In this document: positions 30,574-40,442 of the stretch, piece by piece
Position numbering within the stretch: position 1 is the first letter of the stretch
Layout: each line of letters begins with the position of its first letter
From: Saprospiraceae bacterium
GTDB taxonomy: Bacteria > Bacteroidota > Bacteroidia > Chitinophagales > Saprospiraceae
Reading direction: 5' to 3'
Length of the DNA stretch: 64,000 bases
Assembly (NCBI GenBank): GCA_026986005.1
Contig: JALSPK010000212.1
Span: forward strand, 1-64,000
Translations under genes and position numbers: made by a program
Notes under the pieces: generated by a model
Database searches by the model: none
Told to the model about the DNA's origin: nothing
What the model saw: only the letters and a program-made list of their open reading frames with translations

Positions 30574-31818
30574 TTATTTTTCCCACAGTTTAAAGCAAAT
30601 TATCTGGTGTCTATCCGGTTGATAAAATACCCCGGCAGTCGAATCTATATACGGAGGCATAATCTCAAACCTCGCGAAGACATTATCCGGATTAACGTTG
30701 CGATGCGGACTATCGATTCTCAGCAACTCTTCTCCTGTATTCATATCCACTATAATCAATTGATTACCTTCATTCACATGATATATCATATCTTTATAGT
30801 AGCTTATTCCTCCAAGGCCACCTCCTGCTTTATCGTTTTCCCATATTATACTACCGTCTTTGGAATCCAAACAGAAAATCTTTTTATTATCAGCTAACAA
30901 ATACAGTCGACCGTTCAATAACAAAGGTTCGTTTCCTCTAAACCAATTGCCATCATGAGTCAAAGGAGTCCGCCATACCAATTTGCCGGTCGATTTATCA
31001 TAAGCTTCTGCTCCTAGATAGTTGGTGATAAAAATATATTTGTCATCATACAAAGGATGCGACGAATAAAAATCACCTCCTTTGGCTCTGGTCTCCCATA
31101 CAAAACCGCCTTTTGTCAAATTATAACTGTATAGTTTTTTGTATTGTGCCTCGTATGTACCGTACATCATAGTATCTCCATTCTCCAATACTTCAAATGA
31201 TACCGTATTGAGTGAGCTAAATCCTCCATATTCTTTTCTTGTGATTGTCAATATCTTTTCTGTCTCCAATGATGGTATATGAAGTTTAATCAGACTGGTG
31301 GAATCAGGATATTGAACTGACGGGCCATATAAGGCAGTAAGATATACGCTATTATCAAATTGGGCTAAATATACATAAAATTTATTATTTAGTTTTTTTA
31401 CTAAGCTCAGGTTATCCAAATCAAATATAAAACCTCCGTCAAGTCCGGATGTTATAAGGTATTTGTCAATTATTTCCATATCACCGAGGCCATTATATCC
31501 TGTTTTGAAAACCTTAAGTCTCTTACCAGTATTGGTATCAAAGAAAAAAATGCGAAATATCTTGTCAATATACGGGGGAAAGCCGTTATATATCAATATA
31601 TTTTTATATTTTTTTACTTCTCCGACAGAACCTATGGAATTTTGATCGGTGGTAGGAGTAAAATATCTGAATTCCAGTATTTTCTCAAGCGGATAGTCTG
31701 TAGTGTCCTCCGGAGGGCAATCCGGAGGACATATCTTTTCGTCCACTTCACAGGGAGGGCAAGCCGTCAGGCTTGCCAATATTCCCGTCAATATTATAAA
31801 TCTGAATAATGTTTTCAT
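30574..31818 (-). CDS. PQQ-like beta-propeller lipoprotein
   Basis: This 414-residue protein has a lipoprotein signal (SLTAC, Cys20) and an unusual Cys/Pro-rich start to the mature chain (CPPCEVDEKICPPDCPPE). The rest repeats blades of the PQQ-like type (DKSTGKLVWRTPL, LDSKDGSIIWEND, VDMNTGEELLRI). The fold resembles BamB or quinoprotein propellers, but no cofactor site is evident, so a binding or scaffold role is more likely than catalysis. It starts 12 bases after the alpha/beta hydrolase gene, which indicates an operon. Confidence 0.85.
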   Translation of the reverse strand: MKTLFRFIILTGILASLTACPPCEVDEKICPPDCPPEDTTDYPLEKILEFRYFTPTTDQNSIGSVGEVKKYKNILIYNGFPPYIDKIFRIFFFDTNTGKRLKVFKTGYNGLGDMEIIDKYLITSGLDGGFIFDLDNLSLVKKLNNKFYVYLAQFDNSVYLTALYGPSVQYPDSTSLIKLHIPSLETEKILTITRKEYGGFSSLNTVSFEVLENGDTMMYGTYEAQYKKLYSYNLTKGGFVWETRAKGGDFYSSHPLYDDKYIFITNYLGAEAYDKSTGKLVWRTPLTHDGNWFRGNEPLLLNGRLYLLADNKKIFCLDSKDGSIIWENDKAGGGLGGISYYKDMIYHVNEGNQLIIVDMNTGEELLRIDSPHRNVNPDNVFARFEIMPPYIDSTAGVFYQPDRHQIICFKLWEK

Positions 31819-31830
31819 GGCTTTATGATT

Positions 31831-33471
31831 TTATCTATGCTCTGTAAAGAAAAAATGACCATATATATTCCTATCAAGTAAGTTTATTAAACTAGTTTGG
31901 GTATTAATATCATTTTGTATGGTCAGATGATTTGAGCCGGGAAAATTAAACTTAGGAATATTATCGACTGTATTCCAATCTTTCTGGGAGTCTACGGTGA
32001 GAAGTCCGTCGTATGGAATAAAATCAATAGATACGCTATAATCGTTTGGATACCATTCGCCAGATTCACAGCTTTGAATCGGGACATTATATACCGGTCC
32101 TTCATCTTCATAGCAGGTACCTAAATCTGAAGACGTTTCCTCATAAATTCTAGCTCCGGCTATTACTTCATAATAATCATTCAAATCAGTAAATCCTTGA
32201 AATCCTATTGCATATTCATCTCTTAAGTGAGGAAGGTTGCCCCAAAATACAAGGGGATCCAAACTCCATGGCCACCATCGGGGTGTGGTAAAAGCTTTTT
32301 TGTCATAATGCTCTTCATACCATATCTCCTGATCCTCATAAAAAGTCTTGATTTTATTAAATACTCCTACGGCTTCATCATTTAACGTTTGTGCAGAAAA
32401 TAACGATTGCGCATTCGGATCTTTCAAAGCGGTATAAAGCAATTTGAATGCTGAATAGTGAGCATTTTTATGTCCTGAAGTGATATCAGTTGTAAAAGCA
32501 ACACGTTTTTTTTCATCCCCATCGGAAGTGATCTGCTCCGATATATTCAATTCGCTAGAACCGGGATCTAATACTTCAGCAGCTTCACTTGTTAACTGTT
32601 TGATAAAAAAACTTGTCAAAAAAGTTTTGTTATTAAAAATCATTTTACTAAGTCCATCTGCTAGAGGTTTTTTTAGGTCGACAACTGCACAAACAGCATT
32701 AAATCCCCAGAAGTCATGAATAAAATCAATAAAATCCTCTGTTGTCTTATCTATTCCTATATTAAATGCACTTAAGTCGATATCTTCAACACTATAAATT
32801 GTTCCATTATAACTGATGTTACCAAATATTAAATGCTCGGAAATAGGACCTGATGCTATTACACCAGCATTATATGCAAAATGGCCTTCTAATTCCTCAA
32901 ATTCAGGGGTGGTAATATTATTGTTATTGGCAGGTTCAATATATTGAGCAATCCTGCTACCACCATGAGGACTACTATAGGTAACAATACCATTGATAGG
33001 CTCAGGATTGCCTTGCTCCGATACTTTTCGAAGTACAACTCCGCCCAGACTATGACAGATACCAAAACTTTGATCATATAGTGTGACTTTAGGTTTGGTT
33101 ACATTATACCAATTATCATTTATTTTATTTTCCAGCCCTGTCCATGCTTCATCCCATGATGTTTGATTTGCTCCATAATCAGGCCTTACTGAGACAACCT
33201 TGTAATTTGATTCAACCCAATCAGCTGCTTTTTCCCATGAAGCGGCACTACCATTCATACCGTGAATCCAATAAATAGCTTTATCACCCGGGAAAACCGG
33301 AGGATGAGGCGGAATGAAAGTTCCCGGATTATCGGTAGGTGGAGTGTATTGAACATCTCCTACATCTATGACTGATGTTATCGAGTCGCAATTGACTTGT
33401 CCGTCCAATATTGTACCAAATGCATTAAACATCAGTACAAATATACTAATTTTTATTATATTATTTTTCAT
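31831..33471 (-). CDS. Secreted alpha/beta hydrolase, lipase-like
   Basis: This 546-residue protein has a signal peptide (1-24), a proline-rich stretch and an alpha/beta hydrolase domain from about 62. Its oxyanion segment is IYWIHGMNGSAASW and its nucleophile elbow is ICHSLGGVV (Ser141). The elbow has Cys where lipases normally have Gly (C-x-S-x-G). The following VTYSSPHGGSRIA is also typical of lipases and thioesterases of the PGAP1 type. The C-terminal half (about 330-546) is not recognised and shows no T9SS sorting domain. The likely activity is hydrolysis of an ester substrate outside the cytoplasm. It lies between the T9SS cargo gene (13 bases) and the propeller gene (12 bases). Confidence 0.8.
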   Translation of the reverse strand: MKNNIIKISIFVLMFNAFGTILDGQVNCDSITSVIDVGDVQYTPPTDNPGTFIPPHPPVFPGDKAIYWIHGMNGSAASWEKAADWVESNYKVVSVRPDYGANQTSWDEAWTGLENKINDNWYNVTKPKVTLYDQSFGICHSLGGVVLRKVSEQGNPEPINGIVTYSSPHGGSRIAQYIEPANNNNITTPEFEELEGHFAYNAGVIASGPISEHLIFGNISYNGTIYSVEDIDLSAFNIGIDKTTEDFIDFIHDFWGFNAVCAVVDLKKPLADGLSKMIFNNKTFLTSFFIKQLTSEAAEVLDPGSSELNISEQITSDGDEKKRVAFTTDITSGHKNAHYSAFKLLYTALKDPNAQSLFSAQTLNDEAVGVFNKIKTFYEDQEIWYEEHYDKKAFTTPRWWPWSLDPLVFWGNLPHLRDEYAIGFQGFTDLNDYYEVIAGARIYEETSSDLGTCYEDEGPVYNVPIQSCESGEWYPNDYSVSIDFIPYDGLLTVDSQKDWNTVDNIPKFNFPGSNHLTIQNDINTQTSLINLLDRNIYGHFFFTEHR

Positions 33472-33484
33472 TTTTATTGATTTT

Positions 33485-34585
33485 TTATTTTACAAAAAAG
33501 AATTTCTTGGTAATAACCTTATCTTTACTTATAGCTTTTATAACATAAAACCCTTGTCTATTCAAATACTTGTTTACATTTAATGAGAATTTCTTTTGTC
33601 CTGTCATTTGTGGTATATTATAGATTACTTTACCATCTAAAGTATTAATTGACAAAACAACCTGCTCTCCAACAAACAAATCGGGAAGTTCAATAGACAA
33701 TGTACCCGAATTTAAAGGGTTCGGAAATAACATTAAATCAAGATCTGTCTTCAATTGATTGTCATTCGCCGTTATTTGTGGTTGTGGTGAGCAACAATCA
33801 AATTGATAATCTTCATAATAAGTTGTTTTTACTCTTTTTGAACATAAACCATTTGATAAAGTATCATTTACCACACTTGTTTTTGTTGATAATAAATTTT
33901 CACGACATTGGTCGATATCAAACAAATCTATGTCTGTTTCTTTAATATTAGGGTCATCAGAATCAGGAGGACTGACTGGCATTGGACCACCGGTCTTAAA
34001 AATAAATGTAGTAATTGTCTTAGGTGTATTTTCATTGAAAATAGTTACACTTGTTGAATCTCCAATCATAGTTACACCGGGTTCTACAACAACAAAAGGA
34101 ATATTTTTATTTGCTAATTCCGTTTGTATGTTTGCTGGGAATACTTTATTTACCAAAATCCCTTTTAATAACACATCTTGCTTATGCAAATCATACAATT
34201 TGATAGTGGTTGTAGTATAAGAAATTTGATTATTAACAGTTTCACCACCTTTCGGACCAATTGTATAAGATGTAAGTCCATTTTTGTTAAATAACCATTT
34301 ATTTGAAAGATATTCCCATTTTTCATGACTGTTGATTGCGTCTGTCAAAATAATTTCGTGGTTAATATCTCCTGTTCTATCAATCCACTCGTGATGTGAT
34401 TTGGTCTTTTGTGTGTACTTAAGGCTCGGGATATCGTAAGGGTGGATATCTTCAAATGCAGTATTCTGAGGTAAATACATTATCTCGTCTTCGATCGTAG
34501 TGTAGGTAACATCAGTAACACAATCAATGTTTTGTGCTTGTACTTGTAAAATTCCTGCTATTAATACCAAAATGATTAATAACAA
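33485..34585 (-). CDS. T9SS cargo protein with frameshifted start
   Basis: The open frame encodes 366 residues and begins, at a TTG, directly with a hydrophobic signal core (LLIILVLIAGIL then QVQAQ). No family is recognised for the body. The last ~80 residues are a T9SS type A sorting domain (LMLFPNPLNSGTLSIEL, NRQGFYVIKAIS, ending KKFFFVK). The frame lacks a basic n-region. Just upstream a good ATG (34647, MKKLNFVY) enters a run of eight C and then stops. One more C would join that start to this frame. The gene is therefore either phase-variable, frameshifted or misread. It leads a group of secreted-protein genes. Confidence 0.7.
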   Translation of the reverse strand: MLLIILVLIAGILQVQAQNIDCVTDVTYTTIEDEIMYLPQNTAFEDIHPYDIPSLKYTQKTKSHHEWIDRTGDINHEIILTDAINSHEKWEYLSNKWLFNKNGLTSYTIGPKGGETVNNQISYTTTTIKLYDLHKQDVLLKGILVNKVFPANIQTELANKNIPFVVVEPGVTMIGDSTSVTIFNENTPKTITTFIFKTGGPMPVSPPDSDDPNIKETDIDLFDIDQCRENLLSTKTSVVNDTLSNGLCSKRVKTTYYEDYQFDCCSPQPQITANDNQLKTDLDLMLFPNPLNSGTLSIELPDLFVGEQVVLSINTLDGKVIYNIPQMTGQKKFSLNVNKYLNRQGFYVIKAISKDKVITKKFFFVK

Positions 34586-34605
34586 ATTTCCTGTTCTGCC
34601 ATTTA

Positions 34606-34647
34606 TTATTCTAAATGGGGGGGGTAAACAAAATTTAATTTTTTCAT
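34606..34647 (-). promoter_or_regulatory. Out-of-frame start and poly-C tract
   Basis: An ATG at 34647 opens MKKLNFVY and then crosses eight C (34624-34617) and stops at a TAA (34608-34606). With nine C (or six) the frame would continue through RIINGRTGN into the signal peptide of the downstream T9SS cargo gene. Confidence 0.7.
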
Positions 34648-34683
34648 GATAAAAAATTTAGTTAAAAAATAAATATTTCATTA

Positions 34684-34743
34684 ATAATCAAGCAATTATC
34701 ATGCCAAAAAATATTTTAAATTTTTATATAAATGCTTGATTAT
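34684..34743. repeat. Inverted repeat between divergent genes
   Basis: ATAATCAAGCA (34684-34694) is exactly repeated inverted at 34733-34743, with 38 bases between. It lies in the 245-base AT-rich gap between the T9SS cargo start (34647) and the feo operon. It could be a hairpin or paired operator half-sites. Nothing else is recognisable in this gap. Confidence 0.4.
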
Positions 34744-34892: not shown

Positions 34893-35996
34893 TTGATTAA
34901 TTTTAAAATCATAATTTTTTTAAACAAAGTGCTTATATTTGTTGTGATAGTAATAGACTATTTATTATTTATGATGATGTATTCATATAATCCGGTTTAT
35001 TCTCTTTTAATCTTCATTGTGTCATCAATGATCATATACCTGTTTTTCAGGCCGAATAAAGGGTTGACATGGCTGTTGTTGAATAGTTATAAAGTAGATG
35101 AGAAGATAGTGATTGAGGATATACTTAAGCAGTTGTACCATAACAGTAACAATAATATCACTACAAATTTCTTAGTAAATGCCTTAGGCTATAAGGATGC
35201 TGTTATAATTTCCGGAATTGATAAGATGATTGATAGTGATTTAGTGTATTTTGATAATGATTTTTTTAAGTTGACAGAAGAGGGGTTTGATTATGCTGTA
35301 AAGATAGTAAGAGTACACCGGTTGTGGGAAAGATATTTGGCCGAAAAAACCGGCTTTGACAAAGCGGAATGGCATGGCATAGCAGAAAGAAAAGAACATG
35401 AAACCAATGAAGATGAAGCTATGGAGTTGGCTACACAATTGGGTAATCCTATTTTTGATCCTCATGGAGATCCAATACCAACTTCTACGGGTAAAATTGC
35501 AGAAATTGACAGTATTCCTTTATCAGGATTGGCGATTGGTGAAGTAGGAAAAATTATTAATATTGATGATAATCCTGAGATTATTTATAAACAAATATTA
35601 GCAGAAAACATTCATATTGGTTCTCAAATAAAAATATTGGAAAATAATTCAACGAGGGTTACCTTTTATTCTGAGGGGGAAGAGTTCAGATTAGCACCAA
35701 TAGTTGCTGGCAATATCAAAGTTTTCATACTCAAAAACCAGGAGGAAATACAAGACAAAAGTATTGTTAGATTAACAGCTCTCAATCCGGGAGAGACAGC
35801 AATTGTAGAAGGTATTTCAAAAGAGAGCAGAGGGGATAGTCGGAGGCGCTTGCTTGATTTGGGCTTTGTGCGAGGAGCCAAAGTATCCATTGATCTCGTC
35901 AATCCGTTTGGTGAACCGACCGGATACTATATCAAAGGGACAACAATTGCATTACGTGATGATCAAGCATTGAAAATATTAATAAAAAAAGACTGA
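34893..35996 (+). CDS. Membrane-anchored DtxR-like/FeoA fusion protein
   Basis: The 367 residues start from a TTG at 34893. An ATG at 34971 would give 341 residues and remove the first membrane helix. One or two N-terminal membrane helices (about 5-27 and 33-52) precede a DtxR/MntR-type winged helix (about 60-125) and a metal-binding dimerisation domain (VRVHRLWERYL, EWHGIAERKEHETNE, NPIFDPHGDPIP). Compared with DtxR, the ancillary ligands His, Glu and His are kept and the primary Cys is replaced by Glu. Two FeoA-like SH3 domains follow (about 205-285 and 290-365). The feoB genes start 3 bases later. It is likely an iron-linked regulator or accessory part of FeoB held at the membrane. Confidence 0.82.
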   Translation: MINFKIIIFLNKVLIFVVIVIDYLLFMMMYSYNPVYSLLIFIVSSMIIYLFFRPNKGLTWLLLNSYKVDEKIVIEDILKQLYHNSNNNITTNFLVNALGYKDAVIISGIDKMIDSDLVYFDNDFFKLTEEGFDYAVKIVRVHRLWERYLAEKTGFDKAEWHGIAERKEHETNEDEAMELATQLGNPIFDPHGDPIPTSTGKIAEIDSIPLSGLAIGEVGKIINIDDNPEIIYKQILAENIHIGSQIKILENNSTRVTFYSEGEEFRLAPIVAGNIKVFILKNQEEIQDKSIVRLTALNPGETAIVEGISKESRGDSRRRLLDLGFVRGAKVSIDLVNPFGEPTGYYIKGTTIALRDDQALKILIKKD

Positions 35997-35999
35997 TTT

Positions 36000-36764
36000 A
36001 TGGATGTTTTACCTCATAGTAACTGTGAAAACTGCGATCAATTCAATACTGATGGATTGAAAAAACTTGGAATTGATATCGATGATTTTGATTTTGTAGT
36101 GGCGCTTGCCGGAAATCCCAATACGGGGAAAAGTACGGTTTTTAATGCATTGACAGGTTTAAGACAGCATACAGGCAACTGGCCGGGCAAGACCGTAACA
36201 CGTGCAGAAGGTGCATTTCAATATAATGACAAAAAATATAAATTAGTAGATTTGCCTGGCACTTATTCTCTTTTATCTACATCGGAAGACGAAGAGATAG
36301 CTAGAAACTTTATATTATTTGGTAAGCCCAATGTTACTGTAATCGTCGTAGATGCAAATAGACTGGAAAGAAATTTGAATTTAGTACTCCAAATTTTGGA
36401 AATTACTAACAAGGCTGTCTTATGTCTCAATCTCATGGATGAAGCAAAAAGAAATAAGATAGATATTAACGTTAGGTCTTTGGCAAGAGACTTGGGTATA
36501 CCCGTCGTGCCTACAAGCGCAAGATACAAGGAAGGCATCCCCGAACTTATTCAAACGATCAATGACTTAGCTGATGGTAAAATTATCTGTAAGCCGCATA
36601 AGATTAAAAATATACCAAAAGACATTGAAGAAGCTGTCGAACTGTTAAGCGTTAGGGTTAAAAAAGAATTTCCTAATATCCCCAATAGTAGATGGATAGC
36701 CTTTAGACTTTTGGAAGGGGATGCGCAGATTATTGAAGCCTTGGAGTCAGGTGTATTTTTGTAA
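36000..36764 (+). CDS. feoB: FeoB G-domain protein (split FeoB, N-terminal half)
   Basis: This 254-residue cytosolic protein is the GTPase part of the ferrous iron transporter FeoB. Its motifs are G1 [17 protein letters not shown]2 region [10 protein letters not shown]3 DLPGTYSL, G4 NLMD and G5 TSA, followed by the helical guanine-dissociation-inhibitor segment to about 245. It stops (TAA) just where the FeoB permease would begin. The downstream permease gene is in the same reading frame, separated by TAA AAC TAG TAA. It starts 3 bases after the DtxR-FeoA gene. It should regulate ferrous iron uptake by GTP binding. Confidence 0.9.
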
Positions 36765-36773
36765 AACTAGTAA

Positions 36774-38192
36774 ATGGATAAAATAACAATAAAAAATATT
36801 ATTGCTTTGGCAGAAGAACTTCGTTGGAAAATCGGAGATGATTTTCACGATAATCTTGCAGAAGGTATATATGCAGATGCAGCTGAAATAGTAGAGGATG
36901 CAATTATTAGCAAGTCCAATAAAACCGCACGATTAGATAATAAAATTGATAGAATAGTTACAAGTAGAGTATGGGGATTTCCCATTATGTTTTTTATCTT
37001 AGGGATAGTTCTTTGGTTGACTATTCAAGGGGCGAATTATCCTTCAGCTATGCTGTCGGATTTTTTACTCGGAGATATTAGGCCTGTATTAAAATCACTT
37101 GCGTCCGGTGTGGGTATGCCCTGGTGGCTATCCGGTTTTTTAATAAACGGGGTGTATTTAGCAGTAGCCTGGGTCATTGCGGTAATGCTGCCACCTATGG
37201 CTATCTTTTTCCCTCTTTTTACATTACTGGAAGACTTTGGATATTTGCCTAGAGTCGCTTTTAATCTTGATTATTTGTTTAAAAAATCAGGAGCACATGG
37301 TAAGCAGGCGCTTACTATGAGTATGGGATTTGGCTGCAATGCTGCGGGGGTAGTAGCTACAAGGATAATAGATAGTCCAAGAGAAAGATTAATCGCAATT
37401 ATAACAAACAATTTTTCACTGTGCAATGGTAGATGGCCTACACAAATACTTTTAGCAACAATATTTATAGGTGCAGTGGTTCCTGCTTCAATGTCGGGCA
37501 TGGTATCATTGGCAGCTGTTTTTGGCATAGCTGTATTAGGTATATTTTTTATGTTTTTTGTGTCTTGGGCTTTGTCAAAAACTTTGTTGAAAGGCGAAGT
37601 GTCAACTTTTAATCTAGAGTTGCCTCCATATAGACCCCCTAATTTTTGGCAGACCATATACACATCAATCATCGATAGGACATTGATTGTTTTGTGGAGA
37701 GCTATTGTATTTGCAGCTCCTGCAGGTGCAGCTATTTGGCTAATATCAAATTTGAATATAGGAGATCAAAGTATTGCTGCATGGATAATCCAATATTTGG
37801 ATGGTTTTGGTTTTATAATCGGTTTGAACGGAGTGATTTTATTAGCGTATATAGTTGCTATTCCGGCAAATGAAATTGTGATACCTACTATACTTATGCT
37901 TACGGTACTAGTGACAGGTATGCAAGCAGGAGAGGGAGCCGGAGTGATGTTTGAGTTGGACTCAGTTAATGATACGGCTGCGATATTGAAAGCAGGTGGT
38001 TGGACTGTATTGACTGCGATAAACGTGATGTTGTTTAGTCTGCTTCACAATCCTTGTAGTACCACAATATATACTATATACAAGGAAACAAAAAGTAAAA
38101 AATGGACATTAATCGCAACAATTTTACCTATAATTATGGGATTAGTTGTTACTTTTGTCGTCGCTCAAATATGGCGAATTATTGCAAATTGA
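36774..38192 (+). CDS. feoB: FeoB permease (split FeoB, C-terminal half)
   Basis: This 472-residue protein holds the membrane part of FeoB. A ~60-residue cytosolic start is followed by about nine helices. The two Gate motifs contain the conserved Cys residues ([11 protein letters not shown] and LLHNPCSTT), and [10 protein letters not shown] lies between them. A full FeoB is about 700-770 residues, and the two halves together give 726. It begins with its own ATG 10 bases after the stop of the G-domain gene. The pair probably assembles as a two-subunit ferrous iron importer in the inner membrane. Confidence 0.92.
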
Positions 38193-38210: not shown

Positions 38211-40442
38211 ATGAATAGATTGTTCCTGATATTGTTTTTTGTAATACAAATTATAAGTTCGTATTCTCAAGTTAAACAGCAAAACCCTCAGATTGATAAA
38301 ATAGATGTTTTACATTATGATTTTGATATAAAACTAACAGATGCCAATGATATTATTGAAGTTTATGAAGCGGTCAGCATTAGGTTTATGAAATCAACAA
38401 ATTCATTTTTTTTAGACTTGAAAAATAAAGAAAGCGATAAAGGAATGAGTGTCATCGAAGTACTAAATGGAGATGCAAAGATAAAATTTAAACATATAAA
38501 TGATAGATTGTATTTTAAAGGTCATTGGGAAAAAGATAGTGTTGATACATTTAAAATAAGCTTTAAAGGCATCCCGGCAGACGGTCTTATTATTTCAAAA
38601 AACAAAAAAGGGAAAAGAACGTTTTTTGGAGATAATTGGCCCAACAGAGCACACAATTGGCTTTGTGTGATTGACCATCCATCCGACAAAGCTAGTGTTG
38701 ATTTTACAGTACGCGCACCAAGTCATTATGAGGTTATTGCAAATGGAATTTTGGTTGAAAAAGTAAAAATAAATGATGAGTTTAACCGAATTAGTTACAG
38801 TACAGGAGATGTGCCTTTGGCAACAAAAGTCATGGTCATAGGAGTAGCAGATTTTGATATTAAAAATTATGGAAATATTTATGGTATACCTATTAGTTCG
38901 TGGGTTTTTAATCCGGTCCCGAAAGGAGGCTTAGATGATTATATTTCCGCTATGGATATTATGAAGTTTTATACTGATTCAATCGGTAAATACTCGTATC
39001 ACAAACTAGCCAATGTACAATCCAAGACAAGGTATGGTGGTATGGAAAATGCAGGAAATATTTTTTATTATGAGGGATCTGTAAATGGCAGACATCAAGT
39101 TGAGCCTTTGGTAGCCCACGAGGTAGCTCACCAATGGTTTGGCAACAGTGTAAGTGAAAAATCTTGGTATGATATATGGTTGAGTGAAGGATTTGCAACT
39201 TATCTTACTGATATGTATCTTGAATTCAAATATGGGGAACAAAGACTTATGGAAAGGATGAAAACCGAAAGGAAAAAAGTAATCAGGTACAATTCAAGAA
39301 TTTCAAAATCCGTTATTGATACTACTGTGACAGATTGGAATAAATTACTGAACCCCAACTCTTATGAGAAAGCTGCTTGGTTTTTGCATATGTTGAGAAA
39401 CAAAATCGGAACAACCAATTTTTATTCTTTGCTTAGAAATTATTATAAGAGATATAAAAATTCTAATGCCTTAACAAAAGATTTCAGAGCCATAGCAGAG
39501 CAGGTGTCAAATGAAAATTTAAAGCTGTTTTTTAACCAATGGCTTATTAAGCCCGGACACCCGAAGCTTAATATAGATTGGCAAATATTAGATACTGTTT
39601 TATATGTAAAAATTGTTCAAAACAAAGATTTATTTTATTTTGATTTACCTATTAGGATTGTTAGTAATAAGAACTTATTAGATTTTACTGTGCATGTTAG
39701 CAGTTATAAAGATGTATATGCACTACCTGTTAATTCATCTTTTGACGATGCTAATACCAAATTGACTCTAGATCCAAAAGTCATTTTACTACACGAAGCT
39801 AAAGTTCTTCATTCAAAAAATATGGAGATAAAATTCCCTGTCATACAAGGAAGTGATTTTCTTCAAGAGGGTGATTTGTTATTTCAGGATTTGGATTGCG
39901 GTCCTCTTTGTGATGCAATTGAAAGCGTGACCTTTGGTTTGGATAGTGCTCATTTTTCGCACGTAGGAATAGTATCTAAAAAGAAAAATGGCAAAGTGTT
40001 GATTGCTGAAGCGATGGGAAATGCCGTAAGGGAAGTAGACCTTAGTACTTTTCTGGATAGATATAAGGATAAATTTAACAGACCAAAAGTAGTGGTTGGA
40101 CGGTTAAATGATGAGAGTATCATTAAAAATTCGATTATTAATCTCAAAAAGTATATCGGTAAGCCTTATGATGATGTTTTTAGTATCAAAAACGATAGAT
40201 ATTATTGCTCTGAACTGGTTTACTTTACTTTTAAAGACAATAAGGGAGAGAGTGTTTTTTCTTTGTTGCCAATGAACTACAAAGACAAGGCAACTGATAA
40301 ATATTTTGAATCATGGGTGGAGTATTTTAAAAAGTTGAACACTAAAATTCCACAAGGACAGCAAGGTATTAATCCGGGGGGAATTTCCAGGTCTTCAAAA
40401 ATAATTATTTTATATAAATACGGTAATCCTGAAGGCTGGTAA
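38211..40442 (+). CDS. M1 aminopeptidase fused to YiiX-like cysteine hydrolase
   Basis: This 743-residue protein has a signal peptide (1-20) and an M1 (gluzincin) aminopeptidase core: exopeptidase motif GGMENAG (about 276-282), zinc site HEVAH (His303, His307) and Glu326 in LSEGFATY. From about residue 540 an NlpC/P60-superfamily domain of the YiiX/YebB type follows. Its catalytic His is in HFSHVGIV (about 583) and its Cys is in YYCSELVYF (about 665). I know of no common M1 protein with this tail. It lies 18 bases after feoB and may be transcribed with it. It is probably periplasmic or surface-exposed and acts on peptides, and perhaps on amide or lipid-linked substrates. Confidence 0.85.
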   Translation: MNRLFLILFFVIQIISSYSQVKQQNPQIDKIDVLHYDFDIKLTDANDIIEVYEAVSIRFMKSTNSFFLDLKNKESDKGMSVIEVLNGDAKIKFKHINDRLYFKGHWEKDSVDTFKISFKGIPADGLIISKNKKGKRTFFGDNWPNRAHNWLCVIDHPSDKASVDFTVRAPSHYEVIANGILVEKVKINDEFNRISYSTGDVPLATKVMVIGVADFDIKNYGNIYGIPISSWVFNPVPKGGLDDYISAMDIMKFYTDSIGKYSYHKLANVQSKTRYGGMENAGNIFYYEGSVNGRHQVEPLVAHEVAHQWFGNSVSEKSWYDIWLSEGFATYLTDMYLEFKYGEQRLMERMKTERKKVIRYNSRISKSVIDTTVTDWNKLLNPNSYEKAAWFLHMLRNKIGTTNFYSLLRNYYKRYKNSNALTKDFRAIAEQVSNENLKLFFNQWLIKPGHPKLNIDWQILDTVLYVKIVQNKDLFYFDLPIRIVSNKNLLDFTVHVSSYKDVYALPVNSSFDDANTKLTLDPKVILLHEAKVLHSKNMEIKFPVIQGSDFLQEGDLLFQDLDCGPLCDAIESVTFGLDSAHFSHVGIVSKKKNGKVLIAEAMGNAVREVDLSTFLDRYKDKFNRPKVVVGRLNDESIIKNSIINLKKYIGKPYDDVFSIKNDRYYCSELVYFTFKDNKGESVFSLLPMNYKDKATDKYFESWVEYFKKLNTKIPQGQQGINPGGISRSSKIIILYKYGNPEGW

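Follow-up and report, generated by a model that had tools for sequence, protein, structure and literature searches.

What is the role of a poly-C tract that separates a start codon from the secreted protein it appears to serve? This question is raised by a locus in the 64,000-nucleotide window analyzed here, which is the stretch from position 1 to 64,000 of the forward strand of contig JALSPK010000212.1 (assembly GCA_026986005.1) from a Saprospiraceae bacterium; the draft genome (G000) comprises 3.8 Mb in 220 contigs, and the window is 34% GC. On the minus strand, an ATG at 34645..34647 is followed by a tract of eight cytidines (C8, 34617..34624) and then, in a different frame, by a gene for a predicted cargo protein of the type IX secretion system (T9SS). 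Judged from the sequences of this locus and its relatives, the tract is likely a contingency switch, a site of slipped-strand phase variation that would govern a set of sigma54-driven secreted proteins. Slipped-strand phase variation had been proposed in the original prediction, and the proposal is supported, not proven, by the same anatomy at 12 further loci, which display frame offsets of both signs.

The minus strand has the layout ...TATCATGAAAAAATTAAATTTTGTTTA-CCCCCCCC-ATTTAGAATAATAAATGG..., with ATTTAGAATAATAAATGG directly after C8, and the tract (34624-34617) begins 23 nucleotides (nt) downstream of the first base of the ATG. As assembled, the frame of ATG 34647 reads MKKLNFVYPPHLE* and terminates at an in-frame TAA (34608-34606), giving a mini-open reading frame (mini-ORF) of 13 codons plus stop at 34606..34647, exactly as first described. 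The cargo frame (33485..34624, minus strand, 379 codons plus stop) begins PPPFRIINGRTGNLLLIILVLIAGILQVQAQN and stays open for 379 residues past the tract; toward its C terminus is a type A sorting domain (Por_Secre_tail, 33500..33730, minus strand), which is recognized above cut-off by both PF18962 (E 3.3e-6) and TIGR04183 (E 5e-7). When the tract length is varied computationally, nine C join the ATG to the cargo frame as a single 387-residue protein, confirming the predicted effect of one added C, and 7, 8, or 10 C leave a product of only 11-13 amino acids. The nine-C reading also displays the anticipated complete Sec signal peptide at its N terminus, MKKLNFVYPPPFRIINGRTGNLLLIILVLIAGILQVQA|QN as judged by eye, which the other readings lack; the cargo frame contributes the rest of this peptide, PPPFRIINGRTGNLLLIILVLIAGILQVQA (34535..34624, minus strand), without a start of its own. 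C8 is a single-nucleotide repeat in a coding region, longer than expected by chance, at which a change of one C switches an intact downstream frame. Replication slippage is the most economical explanation: the tract would gain or lose one base, with nine C (or six) placing ATG 34647 in frame with the full signal peptide and the T9SS cargo (ON), and 7, 8, or 10 C ending translation after 11-13 codons (OFF), the state of the assembled genome. Because the tract falls within the n-region of the signal peptide, the OFF state would leave no exportable product.

A search of the cargo frame itself indicates that no alternative start codon would yield the full signal peptide. The closest upstream stop lies 36 nt before the tract, no ATG, GTG, or TTG occurs from that stop to the tract, and the first TTG codons appear 39 and 54 nt after the tract start, where the hydrophobic core begins. 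The start picked by the ORF caller, TTG 34585, is situated at the beginning of this core, so that a protein initiated there would be without a basic n-region. The same observations bear on the proposal that the mini-ORF encodes a leader peptide with a regulatory role, acting through polyproline stalling, with the cargo translated from a downstream non-canonical start. Every reading of the tract does encode Pro-Pro(-Pro) after 7-13 codons, as such a peptide would demand, but no start codon of the cargo frame would give a full signal peptide, the leader is fused in frame to the body at two loci, and the length and ending of the mini-ORF vary freely, which together make this explanation extremely improbable.

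Upstream of the ATG is a feature that the original prediction missed, along with the family of related loci and the link to toxin-type lipoproteins. Promoters recognized by sigma54 bear a -24/-12 signature in which GG and GC are separated by 10 base pairs (bp). The sequence TTTGGCATGATAATTGC (34692..34708, minus strand), whose GG and GC are 10 bp apart and which lies 44 nt before the ATG, is a predicted sigma54 promoter; the element TTGGCATGATAATTGC is present, and the genome encodes RpoN (RpoN DNA-binding domain, 7e-52). The strict motif TTTGGCAYNATNNTTGC has three matches in the genome, against none in the reversed control. Each of the three sits just upstream of a gene with the ATG-C8-signal-peptide arrangement, its TGG being 59-64 nt before the ATG. 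At the tract rate of this genome, the chance of all three preceding tract genes is approximately 1e-12. The fourth poly-C gene of the genome has a motif variant with TGGTAC, and two further intergenic sigma54-like sites also precede signal-peptide proteins. The tract taken by itself is less telling. There are 18 runs of at least eight C in the genome where approximately 4 are expected from composition, and four of the 18 show an ATG, 23-38 nt, the tract, and a signal peptide; however, ATG with ACCCCCC inside the next 45 nt shows no enrichment relative to the reversed control. For this reason the tract alone was not used as evidence, and its conjunction with the promoter carries the significance. 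With a switch placed behind a sigma54-like promoter, expression would probably depend on an activator signal as well as on a tract that is in frame. One of the two further intergenic sites, at G000:C1:3807 (L216:1501-1850), precedes a long secreted protein whose extended n-region contains C5 and is in frame; it may be a family member that has been shortened and locked in the ON state, and was left out of the loci counted below.

Pattern scans of 298 genomes of the family, together with genus-wide scans, revealed at least 13 loci in which an ATG is followed by 23-38 nt, a run of C5-C10 (the C5 being interrupted), and a signal peptide. These are distributed over six genomes: four in the genome of the window, four in G001, one each in G002 and G003, two in G004, and one in G081, which belongs to another genus. 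One draft genome per species was compared. The sigma54-like element occurs at a similar distance, 54-66 nt before the ATG, at 11 of these loci. Two are ON and 11 are OFF, with a shift of +1 needed at seven and -1 at four. Among homologous leaders the tracts are C6, C7, C8, and C10, and homologous T9SS cargo genes differ in state, with G004:C254 (C8) ON and G001:C176 (C7) OFF; length thus differs between loci and between species, and slippage within a population is inferred. Other homologues of the G004:C254 cargo have an ordinary signal peptide and no tract. Upstream of these tract-less genes (L234, L237, L238, L239), approximately 70-200 nt before the ATG, is a conserved element, GAGCCTACCT..CAAGGCAGACTC.ACTACCGTG..GACGG.AGTGCGAAGGTA.GGTTTTCTTT, for which no Rfam match was found.

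The recurrence of the arrangement also speaks to the main alternative named in the original prediction, a single-base assembly or sequencing error concealing a true tract of nine C and a gene that is simply ON. Homopolymers are error-prone and the genome is a draft in 220 contigs. Nevertheless, errors of both signs, in runs as short as C6 and of differing lengths, would be required at 11 of the 13 loci across six genomes, and several other C8 and C9 runs of the same genome (for example L007, L018, L010, and L005) reside inside long intact frames, indicating that such runs are not generally miscalled. An error of this kind is accordingly very unlikely. When 84,980 genomes were scanned for the promoter plus TACCCCCC, 45 stretches were returned, only three of which, all from Saprospiraceae, match the anatomy; a match in Roseovarius was judged to be due to chance. 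C11 and C89 also gave local DNA matches to the leader, which were set aside as AT-rich similarity without a tract.

The window gene heads a predicted operon, in keeping with the earlier suggestion that the tract controls a surface protein at the head of a gene cluster. Downstream of the cargo gene on the minus strand are genes for an alpha/beta hydrolase (Palm_thioest-like, 546 amino acids, 31831..33471) and a PQQ-type beta-propeller that is a probable lipoprotein (414 amino acids, 30574..31818). In G004, the cargo, hydrolase, and propeller genes appear in identical order with 33-39% protein identity (34%, 33%, and 39%, respectively), and the leader of promoter, ATG, and tract is kept, in this case as C7 and OFF. 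A second copy of the operon in the genome of the window (G000:C118; L124, 428-4378) has no tract, and its first gene is interrupted near the signal peptide by an in-frame TAG. Among the other family members, six related lipoprotein leaders maintain a constant 34 nt from ATG to tract, and past the tract their variable columns number 10, 9, and 21 by codon position of the ON frame. This excess at third positions implies translation of, and selection on, the ON frame as coding sequence.

These comparisons permit an assessment of gene decay, in which ordinary indels would have broken the frames within a functionless tract. Most loci are OFF, and the paralogue at C118 has lost its tract and has an in-frame stop near its signal peptide, as decay would predict. 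However, the gene bodies are long and open, with 379-899 codons and no further stops, the lipoprotein signal peptides vary mainly at third positions, the tract persists at 33-39% protein identity, and in 13 cases the break is confined to the tract. Decay as a general explanation is thus hardly probable.

A nearly identical copy of the window leader is found in G003. A segment of 153 nt extending from promoter to signal peptide is identical at 152 positions between the window (34563-34715) and G003 (L119:7026-7178), the one mismatch being a T within the run of C (CCTCCCCC). The match begins only a few bases upstream of the promoter and continues up to the end of the G003 contig, 59 nt past the T; the upstream flank is unrelated to the window, no other part matches it, and the cargo body was not found in G003. 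By comparison, mutS of G003 is only 74% identical to its counterpart in the window genome. Either the leader or the operon was transferred recently, or the near-identity is an artefact of assembly or binning. A broader, tentative idea, held with less than even confidence, is that a leader made up of sigma54 promoter, ATG, poly-C, and signal-peptide n-region serves in Saprospiraceae as a portable cassette that is mobile between species and might place a set of surface and antibacterial-type proteins under a double lock, one regulated and one stochastic.

The interrupted tract of G003 is also pertinent to recoding, whereby ribosomal frameshifting or RNA polymerase slippage at an unchanging tract would provide a fixed fraction of full-length protein. 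The offset in G003 is unchanged despite the interruption, out-of-frame states predominate throughout the family, and ribosomes could stall at the prolines that CCC specifies. On the other hand, the required shift is +1 at seven loci, -1 at four, and 0 at two; a programmed ribosomal frameshift would have one direction in all members, and the mixed signs exclude a single such shift. For transcriptional slippage, which has been described mainly for A or T runs (PMC3711429), runs of C6-C7 are short. Recoding therefore appears improbable.

Several observations weigh against slipped-strand phase variation and temper its interpretation. OFF states are in excess (11 of 13; p 0.14 relative to one third ON), and the length differences have been seen between loci and species, each species being represented by one draft genome. 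The tract of one relative, G003, is interrupted by T, and two of the 13 loci (G004:C254 and G001:C176) are without a sigma54-like element. Ahead of the tract, variable columns number 5, 6, and 2 by codon position in a small sample, without an excess at third positions. Finally, some loci have tracts of only C5-C7 and the genome encodes MutS, so that switching may be slow; assistance from MutS loss was considered and rejected, as MutS is present in all five genomes of the genus. Taken with the OFF excess, the short tracts and the presence of MutS would be compatible with slow switching or with partial decay.

All of the proteins associated with the tracts are secreted or are lipoproteins, the class usually found under switches of this type. 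Other poly-C genes encode lipoproteins that have a common N-terminal part and differing C-terminal parts. One of these, G000:C220, has at its C-terminal end a Tae4-like amidase domain (PF14113, 4e-14) in which a conserved Cys and Gly-His are evident upon alignment with solved Tae4 structures (PDB 4hfk, 4j30, 6ijf), and another ends in DUF6973 (3e-18). The poly-C lipoproteins terminating in these two domains are located at L123:984-3098 (minus strand) and L228:4688-6313 (plus strand), and related lipoproteins at L126 and L232 share the N-terminal part with other C-terminal parts. By its domain content, the set looks like a polymorphic antibacterial (toxin) set. The resemblance to Tae4 amidase effectors resides in the conserved Cys and Gly-His of the domain; those effectors are stand-alone proteins of the type VI secretion system, whereas the G000:C220 domain is carried on a lipoprotein with a long N-terminal module and is frame-switched by poly-C. 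No immunity gene was identified for G000:C220, which is distinct from the window gene, or for the set as a whole. One module of promoter, ATG, tract, and signal peptide could control unrelated secreted proteins in the genus, including lipoproteins of antibacterial type.

For the window cargo itself, a search using the protein recovered no related loci, and the AlphaFold model is unusable outside the sorting domain (mean predicted local distance difference test score of 43). PADLOC gave no match. Divergent from the operon, on the plus strand, is an iron operon (34893-38192) encoding a DtxR-type repressor that carries FeoA as its C-terminal domain and then a split FeoB, whose G domain and Gate domain reside on separate proteins, the latter a membrane protein. 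It is followed on the same strand (38211-40442) by a gene for a single protein that combines Peptidase M1 with a C92 (YiiX-like) papain-fold amidase domain.

Most known cases of homopolymer phase variation come from host-adapted pathogens, and pilC of Neisseria has a G tract within its signal-peptide codons. As proposed for the window, a change of one nucleotide in a signal-peptide homopolymer switches an exported surface protein, but pilC is a single gene pair of a host-adapted pathogen, with no shared promoter–tract module and no T9SS cargo; its phase variation by frameshift has been described (Jonsson 1991, cited in PMC7593972). In oipA of Helicobacter pylori, slipped-strand mispairing in the signal-peptide codons switches the frame (PMC10564699), likewise affecting a surface protein through a repeat in the signal-peptide coding region, although the repeat is a CT dinucleotide rather than poly-C and there is no promoter-linked family. 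The opc gene of Neisseria shares control of a surface protein by poly-C, but there the tract lies in the promoter and sets the strength of transcription through promoter spacing (PMC3960869), unlike the coding-frame tract of the window. In Bacteroidota, the best-known route to phase variation is DNA inversion, as in Bacteroides, where invertible promoters vary surface structures (PMC3090145); surface phase variation is the common feature, and inversion rather than homopolymer length is the difference. The open-licence literature that was searched contained no paper joining Saprospiraceae with phase variation and none on slippage phase variation of T9SS cargo. Thus, the mechanism is known elsewhere, and, as far as could be checked, the module of sigma54-like promoter plus tract, the set of cargo (T9SS proteins and toxin-like lipoproteins), and the host are new.

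Overall, a genus of Saprospiraceae seems to apply homopolymer switching to T9SS cargo and toxin-type lipoproteins by means of one promoter–tract module. If this is correct, part of the secretome would be bet-hedged, and gene callers would truncate or miss the genes concerned, 11 of 13 being out of frame in the assemblies. The state of each switch could then be read from metagenomic sequences simply by counting C's.
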